Shown here in pieces: positions 22,003 to 64,000 of a DNA stretch of 64,000 bases (position 1 is the stretch's first letter; each line of letters begins with the position of its first letter). The DNA lies in contig NC_069122.1 of the NCBI RefSeq assembly GCF_026914265.1, positions 34,027,473-34,091,472 of the forward strand, in the 5' to 3' direction. This DNA comes from Mya arenaria (taxonomy: Eukaryota > Mollusca > Bivalvia > Myida > Myidae). A program made the translations under genes and the position numbers. The notes below the pieces were generated by a model. The model saw only the letters and a program-made list of their open reading frames with translations, ran no database searches and had not been told where the DNA came from.

Positions 22003-34745
<12,743 letters not shown>

Positions 34746-39973: not shown

Positions 39974-40744
39974 TCCCGTGCCAAAAAAAAAGCTCAGCTT
40001 TCGAAAAAGCGCAGCTTTAGCTTAGCTAAAGCTATGCTTTTCAAAAAGCTGCGTTTTTTTAGCTAAGCTATTTTGAAAAAGCTTAGCAAAAGCTGTGTTT
40101 TTTTATAGAAAGGTTAGCAAAAGCTGTGCTTTTTAATAATAGCTTAGCTAAAGCTATTTTTTTTTTCTCTAAAAAGCTGCGCTTTTTCTTCAAAGCTGCG
40201 CTTTTTAAAAAAGAGCTGCACAAAAGCTATGTTCTTTTCTCTAAAAGCTGAGTTTTTTCTTCTAAGCTGCGCTTTTTGTTTATGAAGATGCGTTTTTTAA
40301 ATCAAAGCTTAGCTAAAGCTGCGTCTTTTGACTAGGTAAAAGATTGCCTCTTAGAAAAGCTGCGTCTTTTTCATATTAGCTGCGTCTTTTCCAAAATTAA
40401 AATTCGGTAAGTATTTCTTTAAAAGACTAAGCTTTTCAAACAAAAGACTAAGCTTTTGGAGAAAAACAAAGGTTTATATTGTGAAATTCATTTTCAAAAT
40501 TTATTATTTATTTATAACACAGTTATTAAAATAGAAATTCCAAATATTTTTTTGTGTTTTTTTTTTATTCAAAACGCAGGTGTCTGAAAATATATCATTT
40601 TCCTAAATACCTTTAAATTGTTTTGAAAATGTGTCCCATCTCATCAGGTCCTGATTATTCTATTTTGGATTTTTTATTTTAAACTAAAATTGAATCCATG
40701 TTGGTCAAGTTATTCTTTGTCTCTGTACATGCTGATTTGATTTA

Positions 40745-40870
40745 AAATAAGACAATTTTTGGCTGTCTTTGGCATTTAACTAGTGCCATTAAACTGGGTT
40801 TATGTTTAAACTTTTTGCTACTCAGAGCTAGTTTCTGTAGTTTTGGGCATAAATATTTTGGCAGGAACAG
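40745..40870 (+). repeat. Dispersed 110-bp repeat, copy 2 of 3
   Basis: GTGCCATTAAACTGGGTTTA and TTTCTGTAGTTTTGGGCATA match the copies near 9565 and 45445. It lies inside the 3.6-kb element. Confidence 0.6.
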
Positions 40871-41017
40871 AAGATACATCTTTTTTTTATTGGCATCCCT
40901 TTTAAAAGTATCTTTAGTTTTATTGATAATCTACTGTCATTAAATAGTGCACTTTAAGTGTATCTTTGTGTAATAAAGTAAACATTTATGAAATATACAC
41001 ATAAATACAAGAATATG

Positions 41018-41033
41018 AATGAATGAATCAATG

Positions 41034-41087
<54 letters not shown>

Positions 41088-41140
41088 CCAGTAAATAAAT
41101 AAATCAATCAATCAATCAATCAATCAACCAGTAAATAAGC
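41018..41140 (+). repeat. (CAAT)n microsatellite
   Basis: About 25 tetranucleotides in two blocks, each ending CAACCAGTAAATAA, so the array was itself duplicated. Confidence 0.9.
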
Positions 41141-43610
41141 ATTTCATTATTGATCAATATACATTCAAACTAAAATAAAATAAAATAATGAAATAAAAAG
41201 AAAGATTATTTTAAAAATCAAAAATATATTATATTTTTTTTATTTAAATCAAAAGAACACATTTTACTTATAGGCAATAATCAATTGCATGTAATAACAA
41301 CATTTATAGAATTATTATTCCTTAAATTTCTTGTAATGCCACTACCAAATTCTTTGTCATTTCCTTTCCAATTTTACAACATGCATGATAAGCCTGATGT
41401 TATCTGATTGTACCAAGGACCAATTAAATCTCAGCATTTAGGGAGCCAATTTCAAATCAAAGCTACTGGTAGCCATTTTGTTGGGATTTCATTAAAAGAA
41501 TTTTGATGATGTTTTAATTAATAAATGAATTCGCACCAATTAAAACAAATTAATAGTAAAGGGATTAGTGAAGTAAAATAATGATCATTAGATCAGATAA
41601 ATATGAACTATGATTAGAAACATGACGGATGATTTGTGATAAACTGACATGTGAAAGCACTCAGGTCATGGTATGTATTCTTTATTTCAGTTGTTAATTT
41701 CACTGTTATGACACTTGACTACTTGTGGGACTTTTATTTGTCAACTTTCAATCTAGTGCACATATTTTAATAAATAACAATGCTGTTGTAGATAGTAGCT
41801 GGATGTAGGATTATTGGTCCCATATAGTACATTTACGTAGTTTTAAAACTCTATGAAGATGCACCTGTTTTCATCCTTATATATATGTTAATATCATATT
41901 AACATATTAAACTGAAATTGCCATGTTTCCATACATATGCACACTAGCACCTTTAATGCTATACAAATGATTACAGTGTTGGTTTTTGGAGGGGTCATAA
42001 AACTGCCATCTGTCACATGGCTTACCAGTTATTGGAAACTGGCCAAATTGGGTCAATCAATTTAAGTTAAGTTCTAATAAAGTCATTACATATTTAAAAT
42101 ATGATACCATGTTTTATTCCAGAGCTGTCAGGAATCTCTAGATTTGACAAAAATATAACAAAAGATCCTTGAGACTGTCATTTTCCAATTTGGAGCTTTA
42201 ACAGTTTCATGATTTTCTATCAATTATTTTTGCCACTGAGTAAAAGGTTATTTTATTATTGCTAAATTTGACAAATATGTACTTGTTTGTCTGTTTGTAA
42301 ATACATTATGTCCAGTTACAAGGTGTCATGTAAAATTAAATATGAAATAATAAAAATATATGTAACACAAACTCATGTTTAGGAAATTTAAATAAAGCAA
42401 AATGTCTATGTATTTATTCAAATGTGTTCTATTTTTGATGGTTCAATATATTTATATAACACGGTTTAAACACACTTGGTGCATTTTTTTTTGTTTAATT
42501 TCGTTAAAAGCGTATATTTTTGTTAAAAAATTCACTTTAGATACACTCAAGTGTGTATTTAGTGCGTTTTTTTTGTAAAATCTTTTCTTCACCTGTGGTA
42601 TTTTTTATGAAAATAGGAGCTACGTTTTTTTTTTTTTAAAAAGCTGCGCTAAATTAGCTAAGCTATTTGAAAAGCTTCATCATAAAGCTAAGCTTTTGGG
42701 CCAACACCGCCATAAAGCTGCGCTTTTCATAATTAGCTAAGCTATTTTGAAGAAAAAACACAGCCCCATCCAAAAGCTAAGCTTTTGGGCCAATTCTGCC
42801 ATAAAGCTGCGCTTTTCATAATTAGCTAAGCTATTTTAGAAAAAGCTAAGCTTTTGGGCCAATACCGCCATAAAGCTGCGCTTTTCATAATTAGCTAAGC
42901 TATTTTAGAAAAAGCTAAGCTTTTGGGCCAATACCGCCAAAAAGCTGAGCTTTTTCTAAAATAGCTTAGCTAATTATGAAAAAGCGCAGCTCCATCAAAA
43001 AGCTTAGCTTTTGGGCCAATACCGCCATAAAGTTGCGTTTTTCATAATTAGCTAAGCTATTTTAGAAAAAGCTAAGCTTTTGGGCCAATACCGCCATAAA
43101 GCTGCGCTTTTCATAATTAGCTTAGCTATTTAAGAAAAAGCGCAGCTCCATCAAAAAGCTAAGCTTTTGGGCTAATACCGCCATAAAGTTGCGTTTTTCA
43201 TAATAAGCTAAGCTATTTTAGAAAAAGCTAAGCTTTTGGGCCAATACCGCCATAAAGCTGCGCTTTTCATAATTAGCTTAGCTATTTAAGAAAAAGCGCA
43301 GCTCCATCAAAAAGCTTAGCTTTTGGGCCAATACCGCCATAAAGCTGGGCTTTTCATAAAAATAGCTTAGCTATTTTGCCCAATATCACCAAGAGCTGAG
43401 CTTTTTTAAGAAATTAGCTAAGCTATTTTGGCAAAAAAGCATAGCTTTAGTGCAGCAGCTGTGTTGTTTTTTTCTCAAAAAGCTGCGTTTTTTATAAAAA
43501 AAAAAGCTGCGCTTTTTCGGGCCAATACCGCTAAGCTTTTAGCTATGCTTTTAGCTGTGCTTTTAGCTCAGCTTTTAGCTTAGCTTTAGCGAACCTTTTT
43601 TGGCACGGGA

Positions 43611-53305: not shown

Positions 53306-53801
53306 TTGAATTTTAAATAAGGAACAGTTTATATCTGTTGAATTTTAAATAGGAAACAGTTTATTTCTGTTGAACTTTAAATAAGAAAAACAGTTTATTT
53401 CTGTTGAACTTTAAATAGGAAACAGTTTATTTCTGTTGAACTTTAAATAGGAAACAGTTTTTTTCTGTTGAATTCTATACAGGAAACAGTTTTCAACTGT
53501 TGAACTTTCTATAGCAAACAGTTTATTTCTGTTGAACTTTAAGTAGGAAACAGTTTTTTCTGTTGAATTTTATACAGAAAACCGTTTTCAACTGTTGAAC
53601 TTTCTATAGCAAACAGTTTATATCTCTTGAACTTAAAATAGGAAAAAGTTTATTTATATTGAACTTTAAATAGGAAACAGTTTATATCAGTTGAACTTTC
53701 AATACCGGTAGGAAACTGTTTAATTCTGTTGAACTTTAAATACAAAATTTTACTTCTGTTGATTTTTAGGAATGAAACAATTTATTTCTGTTGAACAAGC
53801 A
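53306..53801 (-). repeat. About 33-bp minisatellite overlapping the polycystin stop codon, carrying AATAAA hexamers
   Basis: About 14 imperfect units; in minus orientation the core is TTCAACAGAAATAAACTGTT followed by TCCTATTTAAAG. The unit nearest the gene contains the last codons and the stop (CAACAGAAATAA). About six units keep AATAAA, so the array is also a cluster of possible poly(A) signals. Confidence 0.85.
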
Positions 53802-56800
53802 TCTTCAGTTTTGAAGTGATATAGTTTATGTGATCCAGATGATTCTTCTTGCCCTTGATTCTGTCCCTTGCTTCTATGCGGCCCACATTGAGAATAGCTT
53901 GGACAAATGTCATCACACCAAAATAGACGGTAAACACAAAACTGAACAGAAAGACGACACCGATGATTCGGTTGTACTCGTAGAGACCAACAAAGTCTGC
54001 TATGCCCATTAACAGACTTACATTGGATACCAACGCATCACCAAGGGTTTTGTAGCCCCTGAACACGGAGTTGAACAGTAGATATGAAAACGCGGCAAAA
54101 GCGAAAGTGATGATGGCGAAGATGAGTAAAAAAGATAACAGATGCATATGGACTGCCGACAAAGTGTACGATAAGAGGAACATCTTGCGGTTAAATATCA
54201 GCAACTTGATAGTTATCAATATGACTGTTGTCATAAGCCCACCCATCACGTACATAAGGATAGCATCCCAGAAAACAGCAGGATAGAAGCTGACAAATGT
54301 TTCACCCTTGGAGGACTTGAAATCACCCATCACACTTCCAACAGCTAGTACTCTTTGAACAAACATAACCACAACAGCTACAGCCATTCCAATCTGACAT
54401 AATTCTATAATCGTCCAAATGCTAGAAAAGTATTCAGACTTTCCTTGTTTTCTGAACTTCTTCACTTCAATAATGATGAAAGTAAGATTGAAGGCCGCAA
54501 AGAGAACTTCACATACGGCCACAAACTTTCCATAGCTACTGGAGTAGTGATGTAGACTAGTAGAAATTTCATGATGACTTGGGTACACTCCACCAGTGTT
54601 GGTAAACTCAAACATGTACACACCCACGGTGAACATGTCCACATTCGGGTTATAGAAAGTAAACTCCAGAAATACTGCACGAGTATTTCGATCAATCCAT
54701 CCTCTGGTTTCCAAGTCCTCAAGTGAATCTGCAAAATCCATGTAAATAAGCTTATTCATAAGGGTTAATGTCAGTGGGGTTTTTTGGAATTACTTTTACA
54801 GCCTCTGCCTTGCAATTTGGGAAAAAAAAACTTTGGGAAAAATACAATATCAGGCCAAAACAGCTAATATATTGGCTAATATGCATACATTTTGCTTTGA
54901 AAGAGTAAGTCTTGTCAAGATTTTGTTTATATTTCAAGAAATTCATTGCTTATTATTCATTAACATAATCTGCATTTATCAAATTGGGAAAAGGTTAGAA
55001 AATTTTGGGAAAAATGGACAGTTTTTCGCAAGGGGAAACAGCCTTAGGAGTAAATTACAACAAAAAAAATCAACTGAATGTAATTATGGTACACTCATAT
55101 TTTTCAATACATACACAAGTTTCAGTTTAAACTGTAAGGATGTTGTGCTATCTAACTGTTTCAAAGCTTAATGTTAGCCTAATTTGGCTACTAACAGTCA
55201 AGTACGGAACAGACCAATTGTTCACAACTTTGTTTAATTAACGATGTGAACTTTTAAACGTGAAATAGTTCATGATATCCTCAAATATTTAAAAAATAAG
55301 AAGTACAGCTGAAACAGTTGTCTCAAATCCTGTTAGAAATAGGGTATCAGTGTATAAGAAAGTATTTGAAATTTAACAAAGATTTTTTTAACATTATTTT
55401 TAACTTTAACAAAGTTCTGAACAATCGGTCCAATGTAACACAATAACTAATTAATTCTATTTGGCCAACTGAAAAACTAAGAGTCTCTAAATTTGGCCAG
55501 GAACAAAACAAAACTAAGAGTCTCTAAATTTGGCCATGAAAAACAAAAACAAACTAAGAGTCTCTAAATTTGGCCAGGAACAAAAAAACTTAGAGTCTCT
55601 AAATTTGGCCAGGAAAGAAACCCTCTAAATCGATTAGCAACAAATGCCAATGTTAACAAAATCACCAACAAAAGGCAATAAGAACTCATCATGTACATCA
55701 AGCCATTCGAATAATTTCTCCCTGCACATCATATATTTCTTGACTCATGTTATTGTTATTTTAAAAGTTAAGCTCAAGAAAAATGTTCCATTGCTGAAAG
55801 CAGGTCTTGGTAAAAAAAAACAATTTGAATGCTAAAAACCTAAATGTTTGATTACCCTTAACACAAAATCAGGTTGGTATGACCTCAGGAATATCAGTAT
55901 GTGTATACCAAGTGATAAACTGAGTCATAAATGCTACATGGGAAGCTAATATTTTGCTTTGAATGAAGACTTCAAACAAAGATAATTTCACTTTTTCTTT
56001 ACCATTTTAAATGAAACATAACAGAGTCTACGCTGCTAATGGGGCCCCGCCTTCAGTCTTTTACTAGAGTATGATTGTGAGTTTAGTTTCTTAAGTACTT
56101 CGACAAACCTTAACAAAACGTCCGTCTGACAGAGCACTGGCAAAATATTATTTTGAAAAGAGGTTTGTCGAAGTGTTTGATAAAACTAATCACATTATCA
56201 AACTCCGGTAATAAAACAAAGACGAGGTTCCTTAAGCGGCATAAACTGCCCTTTGTTCCATTTAAATTGGTGTATTTAAAGAAAAGATATCTTAGTTTTA
56301 AGTGTTCATTTTAAGCAACACACACTGAATATGATGATTTAAATAAGTTAACAGTTTATAACTGTAGAAGGTAGGGAGAAAGTCTGTAACACACCTGTAT
56401 CCCGCTGCTCCTGGCCAGACAATGGTAGGACATATCCACCCCCAGAGTATGTGGCATGTGAGCCCACGAATGGAAGGGTCTTCAGGGACCAGCCAGACTG
56501 GTGAATCCATGGGTTTATAGCATAATCTGAATAGCACACCACCAGAAAATACAGGGAATGCATTTACTGTCATAATAGTATTATTGTAACATGACCACCA
56601 TAATATTATACAATGTTTAATATCCATATGACTTTAATCAACAAGCCACTGTCAGTATTGTATTAGTTAATAAACTCCAAATCTCGTCTTCAATTTTATT
56701 TATCAAGTTGAACAAGGACTTAGGAGCATAACTAAACAAGAGGGCCCTGAAGGCCCTGTATCACTCACCTGATCCAATAAAGATCATCAAGAATAACATT

Positions 56801-59800
56801 CTGAACAAGTTCCATGAACATATGGTCATAAATGTGGCCTCTAGAGTGTTAACATGCTTTTCCTTAAATTTGACCTGGTGACCTAGATTTTGACCACACA
56901 TGACCCAGATTCAAACTTGGCCTAGAACTAATCAATATATACATTCTGACAAAGTTTCATGACCATACAGTCATAAATATGACCTCTAGAGTGCTAACAA
57001 GCTTTTCCTTTGATTTGACCTTGTGACCTAGTTTTTGACTGCACATGACCCAGATTCGAACTTGACCTAGAGATGATTAATATAAACATTCTGACCAAGT
57101 TTCCTGAAGATACAGTCATAAATGTGACCTCTAGAGTGTTAACAAGCTTTTCCTTTAATTTAACCTGGTGACCTTGTTTTTAACCCCAGATGACCCAATA
57201 TCGAACTCGTCCAAGATTTTTTTGTGGGTAACCTTCTCCTTTCATTAAGATTGTGCCCAATTTGTGACCTCTGGGGTGTTAACAGTCAAATTATTGACGA
57301 CGGACGACTACAACGGACGATGGACACAGGGCGATCACAATAGCTCACTTTGAGCACTTCGTACTGAGGTGAGTTAAAAATATTAAAAACTTTTGGGTCT
57401 TGCTGCACACTGTTAATGATAACATGTATTAAAACTTTCATGTAATTGTCTTGAAAAATATTTTTGGTTTGTTATGGCTAATATAAAGCTTTTGCTCGAC
57501 TTTTTCCGACTATCAAGGGCTAATAATACAGGCACCATTTTAAGTGATATTGGATGATAATTATGTGAAGCTTCATCAAATACTGGGATGCTCCAGTATT
57601 ATTTATAGTTGCCACTGTCCTCCCAAGTGAGGGAATATAATGATTTTAGTGAAGGAATATGATGGCTTACCTTCATCCAACAAAGAGATACTCCAGGATT
57701 GTTTATAGTTGCCACTGTCCTCCCAAGTGAGGGAATGTGATGGCCTACCTTCATAGAACACTGGGATACTCCAGGATTGTTTCTGTCCTCCCCAGTGAGG
57801 GAATAGGAGGGCTTACCTTCATCGAACACTGGGATACTCCAGGATTGTTTATAGTTGCCTCCGTCCTCCCCAGTGAGGGAATATGATGGTTTACCTTCAT
57901 CGAACACTGGGATCCTCTAGGATTGTTTATAGTTGCCACTGTCCTCCCCAGTGAGGGAATATGATGGCCTACCTTCATCCAACACTGGGATACTCCAGGA
58001 TTGTTTATAGTTGCCTCTATCCTCCCCAGTGAGGGAATATGATGGCCTACCTTCATCCAACACTGGGATACTCCAGGATTGTTTATAGTTGCCACTGCCC
58101 TCCCGTGAGGGAATATGATGGCCTACCTCCATAGAACACTGAGATACTCCTGGATTGTTTATAGTTGCCACTGCCCTCCCTTGAGGGAATATGCTGGCTT
58201 ACCTTCATCAAACACTGGAATCCTCCAGGATTGTTTCTAGTTGCCACTGTCCTCCCCAGTGAGGGAATATGATGGCTTACCTTCATCCAACACTGGGATA
58301 CTCCAGAATTGTTTACAGTTGCCACTGTCCTCCCCAGGAGTGTTTATAGTTGCCACTGTCCTCCCCAGTGAGGGAATATGATCGCTTACCTTCATCGAAC
58401 ACTGGGATACTCCAGGAGTATTTATAGTTGCCACTGTCCTCCCCAGTGAGGGAATATGATCGCTTACCTTCATCGAACACTGGGATCCTTCAGGATTGTT
58501 AATAGTTGCCACTGTCCTCCCCAGTGAGGGAATATGATGGCTTACCTTCATTGAACACTGGGATACTCCAGGATTGTTTATAGTTGCCACTGTCCTCCCC
58601 AGTGAGGGAATATGATGGCTTACCTTCATTGAACACTGGGATACTCCAGGATTGTTTATAGTTGCCACTGTCCTCCCAAGTGAGGGAATATGATGGCTTA
58701 CCTTCATTGAACACTGGGATACTCCAGGATTGTTTATAGTTGCCACTGTCCTCCCAAGTGAGGGAATATGACGGCTTACCTTCATTGAACACTGGGATCC
58801 TTCAGGATTGTTAATAGTTGCCACTGTCCTCCCCAGTGAGGGAATATGATGGCTTACCTTCATCGAACACTGGGATACTCCAGGATTGTTTATAGTTGCC
58901 ACTGTCCTCCCAAGTGAGGGAATATGATGGCTTACCTTCATCGAACACTGGGGTCCTCCAGGATTGTTTATAGTTGCCACTGTCCTCCCCAGTGAGGGAA
59001 TATGATCGCTTACCTTCATCGAACACTGGGATCCTTCAGGATTGTTAATAGTTGCCACTGTCCTCCCCAGTGAGGGAATATGATGGCTTACCTTCATCGA
59101 ACACTGGGATACTCCAGGATTGTTTATAGTTGCCACTGTCCTCCCAAGTGAGGGAATATGATGGCTTACCTTCATTGAACACTGGGATCCTTCAGGATTG
59201 TTAATAGTTGCCACTGTCCTCCCCAGTGAGGGAATATGATGGCTTACCTTCATCGAACACTGGGATACTCCAGGATTGTTAATAGTTGCCACTGTCCTCC
59301 CCAGTGAGGGAATATGATGGCTTACCTTCATTGAACACTGGGATACTCCAGGATTGTTTAAAGTTGCCACTGTCCTCCCAAGTGAGGGAATATGATGGCT
59401 TACCTTCATTGAACACTGGGGTCCTCCAGGATTGTTTATAGTTGCCACTGTCCTCCCAAGTGAAGGAATATGATGGCTTACCTTCATTGAACACTGGGGT
59501 CCTCCAGGATTGTTTATAGTTGCCACTGTCCTCCCAAGTGAGGGAATATGATGGCTTACCTTCATCGAACACTGGGGTCCTCAAGGATTGTTTATAGTTG
59601 CCACTGTCCTCCCCAGTGAGGGAATATGATGGCTTACCTTCATTGAACACTGGGATCCTTCAGGATTGTTAATAGTTGCCACTGTCCTCCCCAGTGAGGG
59701 AATATGATGGCTTACCTTCATTGAACACTGAGATACTTTGGATTGTTTATAGTTGCCACTGTCCTCCCAAGTGAGGGAATATGATGGCTTACCTTCATCG

Positions 59801-62800
59801 AACACTGGGGTCCTCCAGGATTGTTTATAGTTGCCACTGTCCTCCCAAGTGAAGGAATATGATGGCTTACCTTCATTGAACACTGGGGTCCTCCAGGATT
59901 GTTTATAGTTGCCACTGTCCTCCCAAGTGAGGGAATATGATGGCTTACTTTCATCGAACACTGGGGTCCTCCAGGATTGTTTATAGTTGCCACTGTCCTC
60001 CCCAGTGAGGGAACATGATGGCTCACCTTCATCGAACACTGGGGTCCTCCAGGATTGTTTATAGTTGCCACTGTCCTCCCAAGTGAAGGAATATGATGGC
60101 TCACCTTCATTGAACACTGGGGTCCTCCAGGATTGTTTATAGTTCCACTGTCCTCCCAAGTGAGGGAATATGATGGCTTACCTTCATCGAACACTGGGGT
60201 CCTCCAGGATTGTTTATAGTTGCCACTGTCCTCCCCAGTGAGGGAACATGATGGCTTACCTTCATCGAACACTGGGATACTCCAGGATTGTTTATAGTTG
60301 CAAATGTCCTCCCCAATGAGGGAACATGATGGCCTACCTTTATCCCACACTGGGATACTCCAGGATTGTTTACAGTTGCCACTGTCCTCGCAAGTGAGGG
60401 AAAATGACAGTTTTAGTCAGGGAATAAAATGACTTACCTTCATCCAAAACTGGGGTCTTCCAGGATGGTTTATAGTGAAGAATTATGATGTTTTTAGTGA
60501 GAGAATATGATGGCCTACCTTCATCCAACAATGGGATGCTCCATGATTTCTTGTAGTTGCCACTGTCTTCCCCAGGATTGTTTATATTTGCCACTGTCCT
60601 CCCCAGTGAGGGAATATGATCGCTTACCTTCATCGAACACTGGGATACTCCAGGAGTATTTATAGTTGCCACTGTCCTCCCCAGTGAGGGAATATGATCG
60701 CTTACCTTCATCAAACACTGGGATCCTTCAGGATTGTTAATAGTTGCCACTGTCCTCCCCAGTGAGGGAATATGATGGCTTACCTTCATTGAACACTGGG
60801 ATACTCCAGGATTGTTTATAGTTGCCACTGTCCTCCCAAATGAGGGAATATGATCGCTTACCTTCATCAAACACTGGGATCCTTCAGGATTGTTAATAGT
60901 TGCCACTGTCCTCCCCAGTGAGGGAATATGATGGCTTACCTTCATTGAACACTGGGGTCCTCCAGGATTGTTAATAGTTGCCACTGTCCTCCCCAGTGAG
61001 GGAATATGATGGCTTACCTTCATTGAACACTGGGATACTCCAGGAGTATTTATAGTTGCCACTGTCCTCCCCAGTGAGGGAATATGATCGCTTACCTTCA
61101 TCAAACACTGGGATCCTTCAGGATTGTTAATAGTTGCCACTGTCCTCCCCAGTGAGGGAATATGATGGCTTACCTTCATTGAACACTGGGGTCCTCCAGG
61201 ATTGTTTATAGTTGCCACTGTCCTCCCAAGTGAGGGAATATGATGGCTTACCTTCATTGAACACTGGGATACTCCAGGATTGTTTATAGTTGCCACTGTC
61301 CTCCCAAGTGAGGGAATATGATGGCTTACCTTCATTGAACACTGGGATCCTTCAGGATTGTTAATAGTTGCCACTGTCCTCCCCAGTGAGGGAATATGAT
61401 GGCTTACCTTCATTGAACACTGAGATACTTTGGATTGTTTATAGTTGCCACTGTCCTCCCAAGTGAGGGAATATGATGGCTTACCTTCATCGAACACTGG
61501 GGTCCTCCAGGATTGTTTATAGTTGCCACTGTCCTCCCAAGTGAAGGAATATGATGGCTCACCTTCATTGAACACTGGGGTCCTCCAGGATTGTTTATAG
61601 TTCCACTGTCCTCCCAAGTGAGGGAATATGATGGCTTACCTTCATCGAACACTGGGGTCCTCCAGGATTGTTTATAGTTGCCACTGTCCTCCCCAGTGAG
61701 GGAACATGATGGCTTACCTTCATCGAACACTGGGATACTCCAGGATTGTTTATAGTTGCAAATGTCCTCCCCAATGAGGGAACATGATGGCCTACCTTTA
61801 TCCCACACTGGGATACTCCAGGATTGTTTACAGTTGCCACTGTCCTCGCAAGTGAGGGAAAATGACGGTTTTAGTCAGGGAATAAAATGACTTACCTTCA
61901 TCCAAAACTGGGGTCTTCCAGGATGGTTTATAGTGAGGAATTATGATGTTTTTAGTGAGAGAATATGATGGCCTACCTTCATCCAACAATGGGATGCTCC
62001 ATGATTTCTTGTAGTTGCCACTGTCCTCGCCAGTGAGAGAATATGACGGCTTACAGCCAACAGGAAGTCCTTTCACAATTTCTGGTGTACAAGAATCTGA
62101 AAACACAATTTTGCAATACATAATCTTTATTTGATGGGTAGTGTTCCATAGGTGGTCTGAAATATAACAATACTACATGTATTACATTACATAGGGACAC
62201 TGATATTGAATATACATGTTATTTGGCCTAATTATTGCCTTGCAAACAAAAGCCTGTTTCCTAACATAGGTGAGGCTATCTAAACTATTTTTTGAAGTTC
62301 CCTTACATTTTGCGTTACAAGATACAGGAATTTTCATTTAAGTCGGGTATATAATACAAAAAAAAAATATGTGTTCAATGAGCTATTTCCGACATGAATA
62401 ACAAAAACATACATAACTATGAATTGGTGACCTGGAAATTAAAGCATATAGTTTTAAATAGGTTACACATGGAAAAAGTATTTACAAAAGCCTTTTATTT
62501 TTATGCACAAGTACAAAACAAGATGCCAATTTGGCAACGCCACATTTTTCATTAATGATACATTATTTGACTATGCAATTTTGCACACCCTACATTTTAG
62601 CTAATGACATAGTTTTTAAACCAAGAAGACTCATATTTATACTTTTATCAGAAATTATGTTCATACAAATAATCTGATCAAATTCCATGAAGATCAAAAG
62701 AAACCATAAATTTTACAATTTGATAAAAACTATTGACTTTAAGGCATGGAATAAAAACTTTAACGTAGAATTCCGCCTGGTTTTTGCAATTCTTAAACAC

Positions 62801-63747
62801 ATTTTTTTTTCTATGAAAAAGTAAGATGGATTAATGTGACTTAATATGATAACATCGACTAGTTTTTCCGATGGTGTGGCCTCTTACCTTGACCATGACC
62901 TTTGAGTTACATGGGTCTTCTGCACAACACGCCACCTCATTATGATGTCAACCTTGATGGTAGTTTTTTTTAAAAATCCTATAATGCATGGTCAAGAAAA
63001 AGCCTGGATAAGGATCATTTCAATCTTTGAGCTCTTACCTTGACCTTTGCAAAATTATACAATGCTGACTTCTTGATAAAGTAGAAGATGTCATTGAGAA
63101 AGATGTTGATGTTGCTCTTTCAATTAAGTTAATTCCTGCTTGTTTATGAAAACATTTGCAGTTTAAAAGCGTTTATTCAAGTCCATATCTGTTTTTAAAG
63201 ATGCACTATTACTCCCATACAAGATTTACCACAATTAATACAATTGTTTTAATATACCAAAAAGGACGAATAAATGTCAAAAACAATGGTTTTTATGAAG
63301 GATACCGAGTTTAATTTGAAAGAAAGGTGCAGAGTACACTGTATTTCTACCTTACAAGATGATTGTAGATCACAGTAAATCTTATAGCACTCACCAATCA
63401 ATTAATATTTTCCATATATGCATTATTTTTAAGTAAGAAGTAAAAGGTTTATCACACAAAATTTATGTTTGCTATCCAAGTGTATGAATTGATTTTGAAT
63501 AAGAGTGTCACTTAAACAAATTGTGTGTACAAAAATACATTGTATTTTGTAAATGCAGTTATTAATAATGGCAATACAATACTGGAGAAAACCAACCTCC
63601 AACCCTAAGCTGTCTAAGCCTGTATGGTCCAACCAGAAAGAATTCTGAGGCTGTGGAGATCTCCCTCCTGCCATATTGAGAGGCTACCTTCATCACAGGG
63701 ATAACAGTGTCCTCCAGGTACTGGTATACACCACCTATGCTATTTAC
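53782..63747 (-). CDS. Polycystin-1-family (PKD1-like) channel protein, C-terminal 449 residues in four exons; 5' part outside the window
   Basis: Exons in reading order are 63747-63597, 62096-61977, 56526-56395 and 54728-53782, all joining in phase. The extracellular TOP (polycystin) domain holds FLVGPYRLRQLRV, a Cys pair (SC...GC, 12 apart) like that of PKD2, the PKD1-type GEDSGNYKKSW, ATYSGGGYV and RGWIDRNTRAVFLEF. Transmembrane segments S2 to S6 follow, with a pore region around SLLMGIADF and a short tail ending MLVQQK. Polycystins are ciliary or membrane cation-channel subunits. No EF-hand or coiled coil follows S6. GEDSGNY and the absent tail favour PKD1-like over PKD2. The donor after RQLRVG (GTTGGT) is weak but phase-correct. 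The first intron carries MITE copy D, the second the 78-bp array, the third a 4-copy repeat. Confidence 0.9.
55475..55625. repeat. Short tandem repeat in the polycystin intron, 4 copies
   Basis: AAGAGTCTCTAAATTTGGCC recurs at about 55479, 55515, 55555 and 55591 (last copy TAGAGTCTCT), separated by A-rich spacers. It lies between the last two exons. Confidence 0.85.
56738..57380. mobile_element. Dispersed element with three ~143-bp tandem units
   Basis: Begins with the hairpin GGGCCCTGAAGGCCC and CACTCACCTGA and ends GATCACAATAGCTCACTTTG...GAGGTGAGTTA, resembling 47714-50580. Units start CCTCTAGAGTGTTAAC (56840, 56983 and 57127). It lies in the polycystin intron. Confidence 0.75.
57599..61976 (-). 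repeat. 78-bp minisatellite, roughly 56 units, seeded by a polycystin exon and its splice donor
   Basis: In minus orientation each unit repeats the end of exon 62096-61977 (GEDSGNYKQSW, then DEG) and runs through the donor, GATGAAG/GTAAGC in most units. The period is 78 bp (26 codons), with small indels in some units. A 1458-bp higher-order duplication is visible. The array fills most of the intron between exons 62096-61977 and 56526-56395. The 400-codon frames across it are by-products of a period divisible by three, and they change frame at indels such as those near 60143 and 61600. Confidence 0.92.
62097..63193 (-). other. Polycystin intron, left part
   Basis: AT-rich intron with no exon-like frame bounded by splice sites, and no clear repeat except the MITE that follows at 63194. 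Confidence 0.5.
63194..63516 (+). mobile_element. Fold-back MITE family 1, copy D
   Basis: TTAAAGATGCACTATTACTC at the left and GAATAAGAGTGTCACTTAAA at the right. It is collinear with copies B and C and sits in a polycystin intron. Confidence 0.8.
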
Positions 63748-63834: not shown

Positions 63835-64000
63835 ATGCAAACACTTTGTGGCCTTTCCATAGCACTTCAAACACTTTGTCACCTTTCCTTTGCACTTCAA
63901 ACACATTGTAACCTTTCGCTAGCACTTCAAACACATTGTAACCTTTCACTAGCACTTCAAACATATTGTAACCTTTCACTAGCACTTCAAACACAATGTA
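63835..64000. repeat. 30-bp minisatellite running off the window edge
   Basis: GCACTTCAAACACATTGTAA-type units recur at exact 30-bp steps (AGCACTTCAA at 63861, 63921, 63951 and 63981; TGCACTTCAA at 63891). It lies upstream of the 63747-63597 exon, in the next polycystin intron. Confidence 0.9.

Follow-up and report, generated by a model that had tools for sequence, protein, structure and literature searches.

Minisatellites, or variable number tandem repeats (VNTRs), consist of 10-100 bp units in variable copy number. Such a repeat, with a 12-bp unit, adjoins exon 2 of the human gene IFI6 (6-16, G1P3). A minisatellite of splice donors in IFI6 was reportedly described by Turri et al. (1995), and Rogers (1989) is said to have proposed that introns can be gained through tandem exonic duplication. 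According to excerpts of the published accounts, two downstream IFI6 repeat units act as donor sites and give rise to three mRNA species (PMC4526556), a potato RNA-dependent RNA polymerase (RdRp) gene gained an intron by tandem exonic duplication with recruitment of a cryptic exonic GTAAG as donor (PMC4974935), and fission yeast contains introns of tandem repeats that resemble the neighbouring exons (PMC3629103), in which a 24-bp segment is present two to four times (PMC4974935). Here we describe a 78-bp minisatellite of splice donors within an intron of a polycystin gene of the soft-shell clam Mya arenaria, located in a 64,000-nucleotide window of contig NC_069122.1 (C1:34027473-34091472; positions below are those of the window unless a contig is named) and followed through a genome search of 1,216,080,610 bases in 18 contigs. 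We propose that tandem duplication of an exon end rebuilt a strong donor, and that the copies probably lay in the intron from the outset and multiplied as a minisatellite that evolves almost neutrally.

IFI6 appears to be the closest precedent. At both loci a tandem repeat offers a series of splice donors, and in the clam it borders a coding exon, with donors in most of its units (54 sites in 56.5 unit lengths), but the clam unit is 78 bp long, wholly coding-derived and present in four paralogs, and stop codons block all later donors but one in three of these genes and every later donor in the fourth. The IFI6 donors are used in RNA; the clam array is described here from DNA sequence. As far as the excerpted potato account goes, both cases comprise duplicated exon sequence made intronic by splice signals, with an exonic GTAAG as donor; the clam array differs from the potato case in reaching about 56 unit lengths and from the tandem-exon-duplication model in that its unit supplies the donor and not the acceptor, a TATTCAG about 1 kb past the array. 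The excerpts on fission yeast likewise describe an intron built of exon-like tandem repeats, although with a 24-bp segment and the proto-splice site AGGC in place of a large minisatellite. Intron 6 of TERT also harbors a long variable repeat, VNTR6-1 (38-bp unit, 24-66.5 repeats), in a paper whose title concerns TERT splicing and whose excerpt makes no mention of exon derivation (PMC11830802). The clam locus would thus join an IFI6-type donor minisatellite with exon-to-intron tandem duplication, on a larger scale and in four paralogs. Literature searches, which were not aimed at polycystins, found no such array in a polycystin or a mollusc.

The host gene lies on the minus strand, where four exons joined according to splice signals and frame give one open frame with 449 codons to the stop:

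63597-63747, minus strand: exon 1, 151 nt, coding, TOP domain, upstream of exon 2; its open frame joins exon 2, and the joined product matches PF20519
61977-62096, minus strand: exon 2, 120 nt, with the parent unit of the array in its last ~78 nt (61977-62054), from translation and unit comparison
56395-56526, minus strand: exon 3, 132 nt
53782-54728, minus strand: final coding exon, with the end of the TOP domain and PKD_channel, to the stop

The gene is a polycystin with a TOP domain and a PKD channel. With the Pfam gathering score as threshold for membership, the joined product matches PF20519 (Polycystin_dom) with 61.8 and 53.6 bits (cut-off 23.6) and PF08016 (PKD_channel) with 103.9 bits (cut-off 22.4). 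Comparison with solved structures revealed weak matches to PKD1L3 (E 7.4e-5) and PKD2 (E 0.04 and up), and a protein database search returned 5 matches among 6379 candidates, none of them named.

The first-pass annotation of this DNA held that the end of a TOP-domain exon and its donor form the unit of an intronic array of about 4.4 kb, and our alignments bear this out. Tandem Repeats Finder (TRF) reports 78-bp arrays at 57648-58337, 58334-60407 and 60572-61865, and cyclic alignment traces one array along the minus strand from 61976 to 57571, equal to 56.5 unit lengths and taking up 4406 bases of an intron of about 5450. Between the final 78 nt of exon 2 and the array consensus, 67 of 78 positions agree. 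The intron contains the following features, in which numbers with a plus sign count from the authentic donor and A denotes the gene in the window and B, C and D its three paralogs:

57571-61976, minus strand: 78-bp minisatellite, 4406 bp, 54 donor-type sites (TRF, cyclic alignment and donor count)
61971-61976, minus strand: authentic donor GTAGGC (AAG/GTAGGC), identical in the four paralogs
61890-61895, minus strand: +81 donor GTAAGT, the sole later donor up to which the frame stays open
61828-61830, minus strand: first in-frame stop (+147) if the authentic donor is skipped
60571-62010, minus strand: first of two copies in a higher-order duplication of 1458 bp (self-alignment)
57571-57648, minus strand: terminal unit, GATGAAG/GTTCAC in D and GATGAAG/CTTCAC in A-C, a possible relic of an older exon/intron junction
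56527-57570, minus strand: remaining intron, unrelated to the unit, up to the acceptor TATTCAG

Including the authentic donor, A has 55 donor-type sites, with the hexamers GTAAGC (41), GTAGGC (8, one of them authentic), GTGAGC (3), GTAAGT (2) and GTAAAC (1). An earlier statement that most units keep GATGAAG/GTAAGC was loose, since the shorter TGAAG/GTAAGC occurs at 40 of the 54 array sites and the full motif at only 22, with AATGAAG/GTAAGC at the other 18. A period of 26 codons likewise describes 41 of 54 donor spacings, which equal 78, and is not exact throughout, with the remainder at 77 (n=4), 81, 100, 109 and 76 (n=2 each) and 68 (n=1). The second copy of the higher-order duplication lies 1458 bp further on and includes another part of the exon end (donor 60518); the two copies share 1290 of 1346 bases between 61985-60640 and 60527-59182, gaps allowed.

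Paralogs B (C1:31.17 Mb), C (C1:31.59 Mb) and D (C5:57.21 Mb) likewise have exon 2 followed by an array of the same unit, and recurrence of one array after one exon in four paralogs excludes a chance origin. A dispersed repeat was considered and rejected: among the genome matches listed, in which each count is an "at least" value, the unit occurs at these four loci only. The arrays measure 56.5 (A), 48.9 (B), 25.8 (C) and 16.7 (D) unit lengths and contain 54, 47, 24 and 10 donors, with the array of D more fragmented (spacing 78 in 5 of 10). Spacings near both array ends are common to A, B and C, and the middles differ. The genes themselves are close relatives, with synonymous divergence (dS) in coding sequence of 0.0066 for A-C, 0.017 for A-B and 0.057 for A-D, a 449-codon C-terminal stretch open in all four, and exon 3 residues the same in all apart from one residue in D. 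With the array and one other repeat masked, the stretches compared over 52 kb around A and C (window positions 11720-64000 and C1:31578000-31629000) show 98.1-99.75% identity; the two regions lie 2.5 Mb apart in inverted orientation and may represent a recent segmental duplication or misplaced alleles or a haplotig. In either case array length changes fast, with a difference of 30 unit lengths between copies as alike as A and C, and this variation in copy number makes the array a minisatellite (VNTR). As a separate observation on these open paralogs, the ratio of nonsynonymous to synonymous divergence (dN/dS) between A and D is 0.78 across exons 1-4, a value that indicates weak constraint or, alternatively, a changed use of the channel.

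Copy-number change and non-coding drift are directly visible among these arrays, and for their origin we infer the following order of events. The array would have started when the final 78 nt of exon 2 were duplicated in tandem. The unit start within the exon reads GTAAGCC in A, C and D and GTCAGCC in B, and the unit ends in GATGAAG; a duplicated segment running from the internal ...TG/TAAGCC (codons Cys-Lys-Pro) to GATGAAG would create the join GATGAAG/GTAAGCC, a strong donor exactly at the old exon end. Splicing at this rebuilt donor would leave the protein unchanged and make the second copy intronic immediately, so that later copies would be free to multiply as an ordinary minisatellite. 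The terminal GATGAAG/GTTCAC of D and GATGAAG/CTTCAC of A-C are consistent with an old and weaker donor having been displaced to the distal end of the array. At present, the authentic AAG/GTAGGC most likely defines exon 2, with the array removed whole in splicing.

A relative without an intron at the array position bears on the age of the intron. In the polycystin E (C3:62538095-62538361), the nearest relative found in the genome, exons 2 and 3 are fused into 267 nt with the same outer phases, and the intron may therefore be young in the A-D lineage. One could suppose from this fusion, and from a unit consensus that has GT at its start and AG at its end, that exon duplication created the whole intron in the A-D lineage as a GT...AG unit under the Rogers model, with later insertions providing the acceptor. 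We consider this unlikely: the acceptor is separated from the last unit by about 1 kb and sits in unrelated sequence, the terminal GATGAAG/GTTCAC of D resembles a pre-existing donor, and with E as the single outgroup gain and loss are indistinguishable, making loss in E equally possible.

Variation among the units is consistent with non-coding drift after duplication of the exon end. We compared units of exactly 78 bp (n=82; A 29, B 31, C 15, D 7), and found that 8 of 47 distinct within-array variants are synonymous in the exon frame, against a simulated chance of 1.85 in 10. By contrast, 7 of the 10 changes that separate the exon from the array consensus after the first codon are synonymous (7/10 versus 8/47, Fisher p 0.0018; simulated chance 0.00085). 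Near-chance variation in the array combined with mostly synonymous exon differences indicates that units drift as non-coding sequence and the exon remains under coding constraint; a coding array was rejected on the 8/47 ratio. Strong selection on the donors found no support, since the donor 9-mer is slightly better kept than average and no more, with conservation ranks among 78 of 21st (A), 15th (B), 14th (C) and 16th (D); the GTAAG core ranks 47th, 43rd, 46th and 22nd. When units were chosen instead by core sequence away from the donor, donor ranks fell at 39, 42, 56 and 68 of 78. Units are not independent of one another, and these selection tests are accordingly rough.

To compare donor strength we scored sites with a position weight matrix (PWM) drawn from a frequency table. 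The expectation that array donors are better than the authentic GTAGGC was correct, with 45 of 54 scoring higher in A (B 32/47, C 17/24, D 8/10). A decoy or poison function would exploit this excess: strong donors would occupy U1 or divert splicing to stop-bearing transcripts, and copy number would set gene output. Retention of the array in four paralogs agrees with such a role, as does the fact that in A, B and C a stop precedes every array donor beyond +81. We nonetheless regard it as highly improbable, because donor bases are conserved only slightly above average, with a GTAAG core that ranks as low as noted above, and because donor number ranges from 10 to 54 among genes with open frames.

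When the authentic donor is read through, the first stop comes at +147 in A, B and C; in D, where an A run is 2 nt longer, it comes at +36. These stops refute the proposal in the first-pass annotation that later donors would, frame permitting, insert multiples of 26 residues, and leave in A, B and C a single later donor that is in frame and open, at +81, which would add 27 residues; D has none. Donors past +81 add a stop in frame, and the resulting transcript would presumably go to decay. An isoform ladder would thus not be possible unless acceptors internal to the array were used, and one alternative isoform, from +81, is possible. Of the two outcomes first suggested, a harmless decoy array and a source of variable isoforms, the harmless one fits better with chance-like variants and barely favoured donors, and the idea of variable isoforms largely falls away.

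Some use of the +81 donor is possible in A, B and C, and a stronger form of this idea is that this donor and the authentic one operate as an alternative pair, with the longer product carrying a 27-residue partial duplication (GRPSYSLTKNIIIPHYKPSWKTPVLDE) in a loop of the TOP domain. The +81 site, AAG/GTAAGT, is joint best in the array by PWM (12.5 versus 8.38 for the authentic AAG/GTAGGC) and is predicted to pair more strongly with the U1 end (-10.6 versus -9.2 kcal/mol). It is not the best donor of the whole intron, as a CAG/GTGAGT beyond the array scores 12.54. The insertion would fall in a region that is shorter in PKD2 than in PKD1L3. With it, the summed profile score drops little, from 61.8 to 60.8 bits, and the match is split in two stretches. 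However, the D gene has the same array with a stop at +36, none of the aligned PKD1L3, PKD2 and P0001 sequences carries an insertion of this kind, and A, B and C are too similar to one another for a selection test on the 27 codons. We consider regular use of the pair a minority prospect. More elaborate still is a ratchet in which the donor-rebuilding duplication hides a coding repeat, dozens of strong donors arise, the stronger in-frame +81 donor yields a TOP isoform 27 residues longer in three of four paralogs, and the downstream donors, by their number (10 to 54), adjust the frequency of the isoform and of stop-bearing transcripts; we give this very little credence. Judged from the sequence, the array is most likely inert save for the possible +81 isoform.

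Several points weigh against origin by exon-end duplication followed by nearly neutral expansion. The donor 9-mer is better kept than the mean 9-mer in each of A-D (0.058, 0.037, 0.044 and 0.049 versus 0.075, 0.060, 0.067 and 0.088), and may be under weak selection. The 3 of 10 exon-consensus changes that are non-synonymous are fewer than expected of a long-drifting array, a shortfall that is not fully explained and may reflect a consensus that turns over slowly or a founder copied at a time when both copies were coding. The GT in the terminal unit of D could be a chance change. Use of the authentic donor, whose PWM score is below that of most array donors, requires exon definition or proximity, both of which are assumed. 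Finally, by a crude pyrimidine count, array AG sites are richer in pyrimidines (0.82 and 0.71) than two authentic acceptors (0.59), which makes array-internal exons conceivable; with a G before each array AG, we hold such exons doubtful.

If the array arose as proposed, it provides a clean natural case of coding sequence turning into intron, in which the join made by a duplication supplies the very donor that conceals the copy. With arrays of about 17 to 56 unit lengths behind the same weaker authentic donor, the four paralogs would also constitute a test of how a donor is chosen before many better ones, and, were +81 used, the edge of the array would feed back into the extracellular domain of the channel.

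Elsewhere in the window, the preceding intron of the polycystin gene contains a 30-bp minisatellite (63838-64000, continuing to about C1:34093131) that does not look exon-derived by eye. Positions 40077-43599 hold several arrays of tandem AAGCTTTT-like repeats whose periods are nested, and an ATC microsatellite of 909 bp and 307 copies lies at 27745-28653. On the minus strand, a 1161-residue open frame at 18314-14832 with a zinc-knuckle-like motif appears retroelement-like by eye, and open frames at 7954-6620 and 4582-3386 resemble, again by eye, a ligand-gated channel and a short-chain dehydrogenase, respectively.

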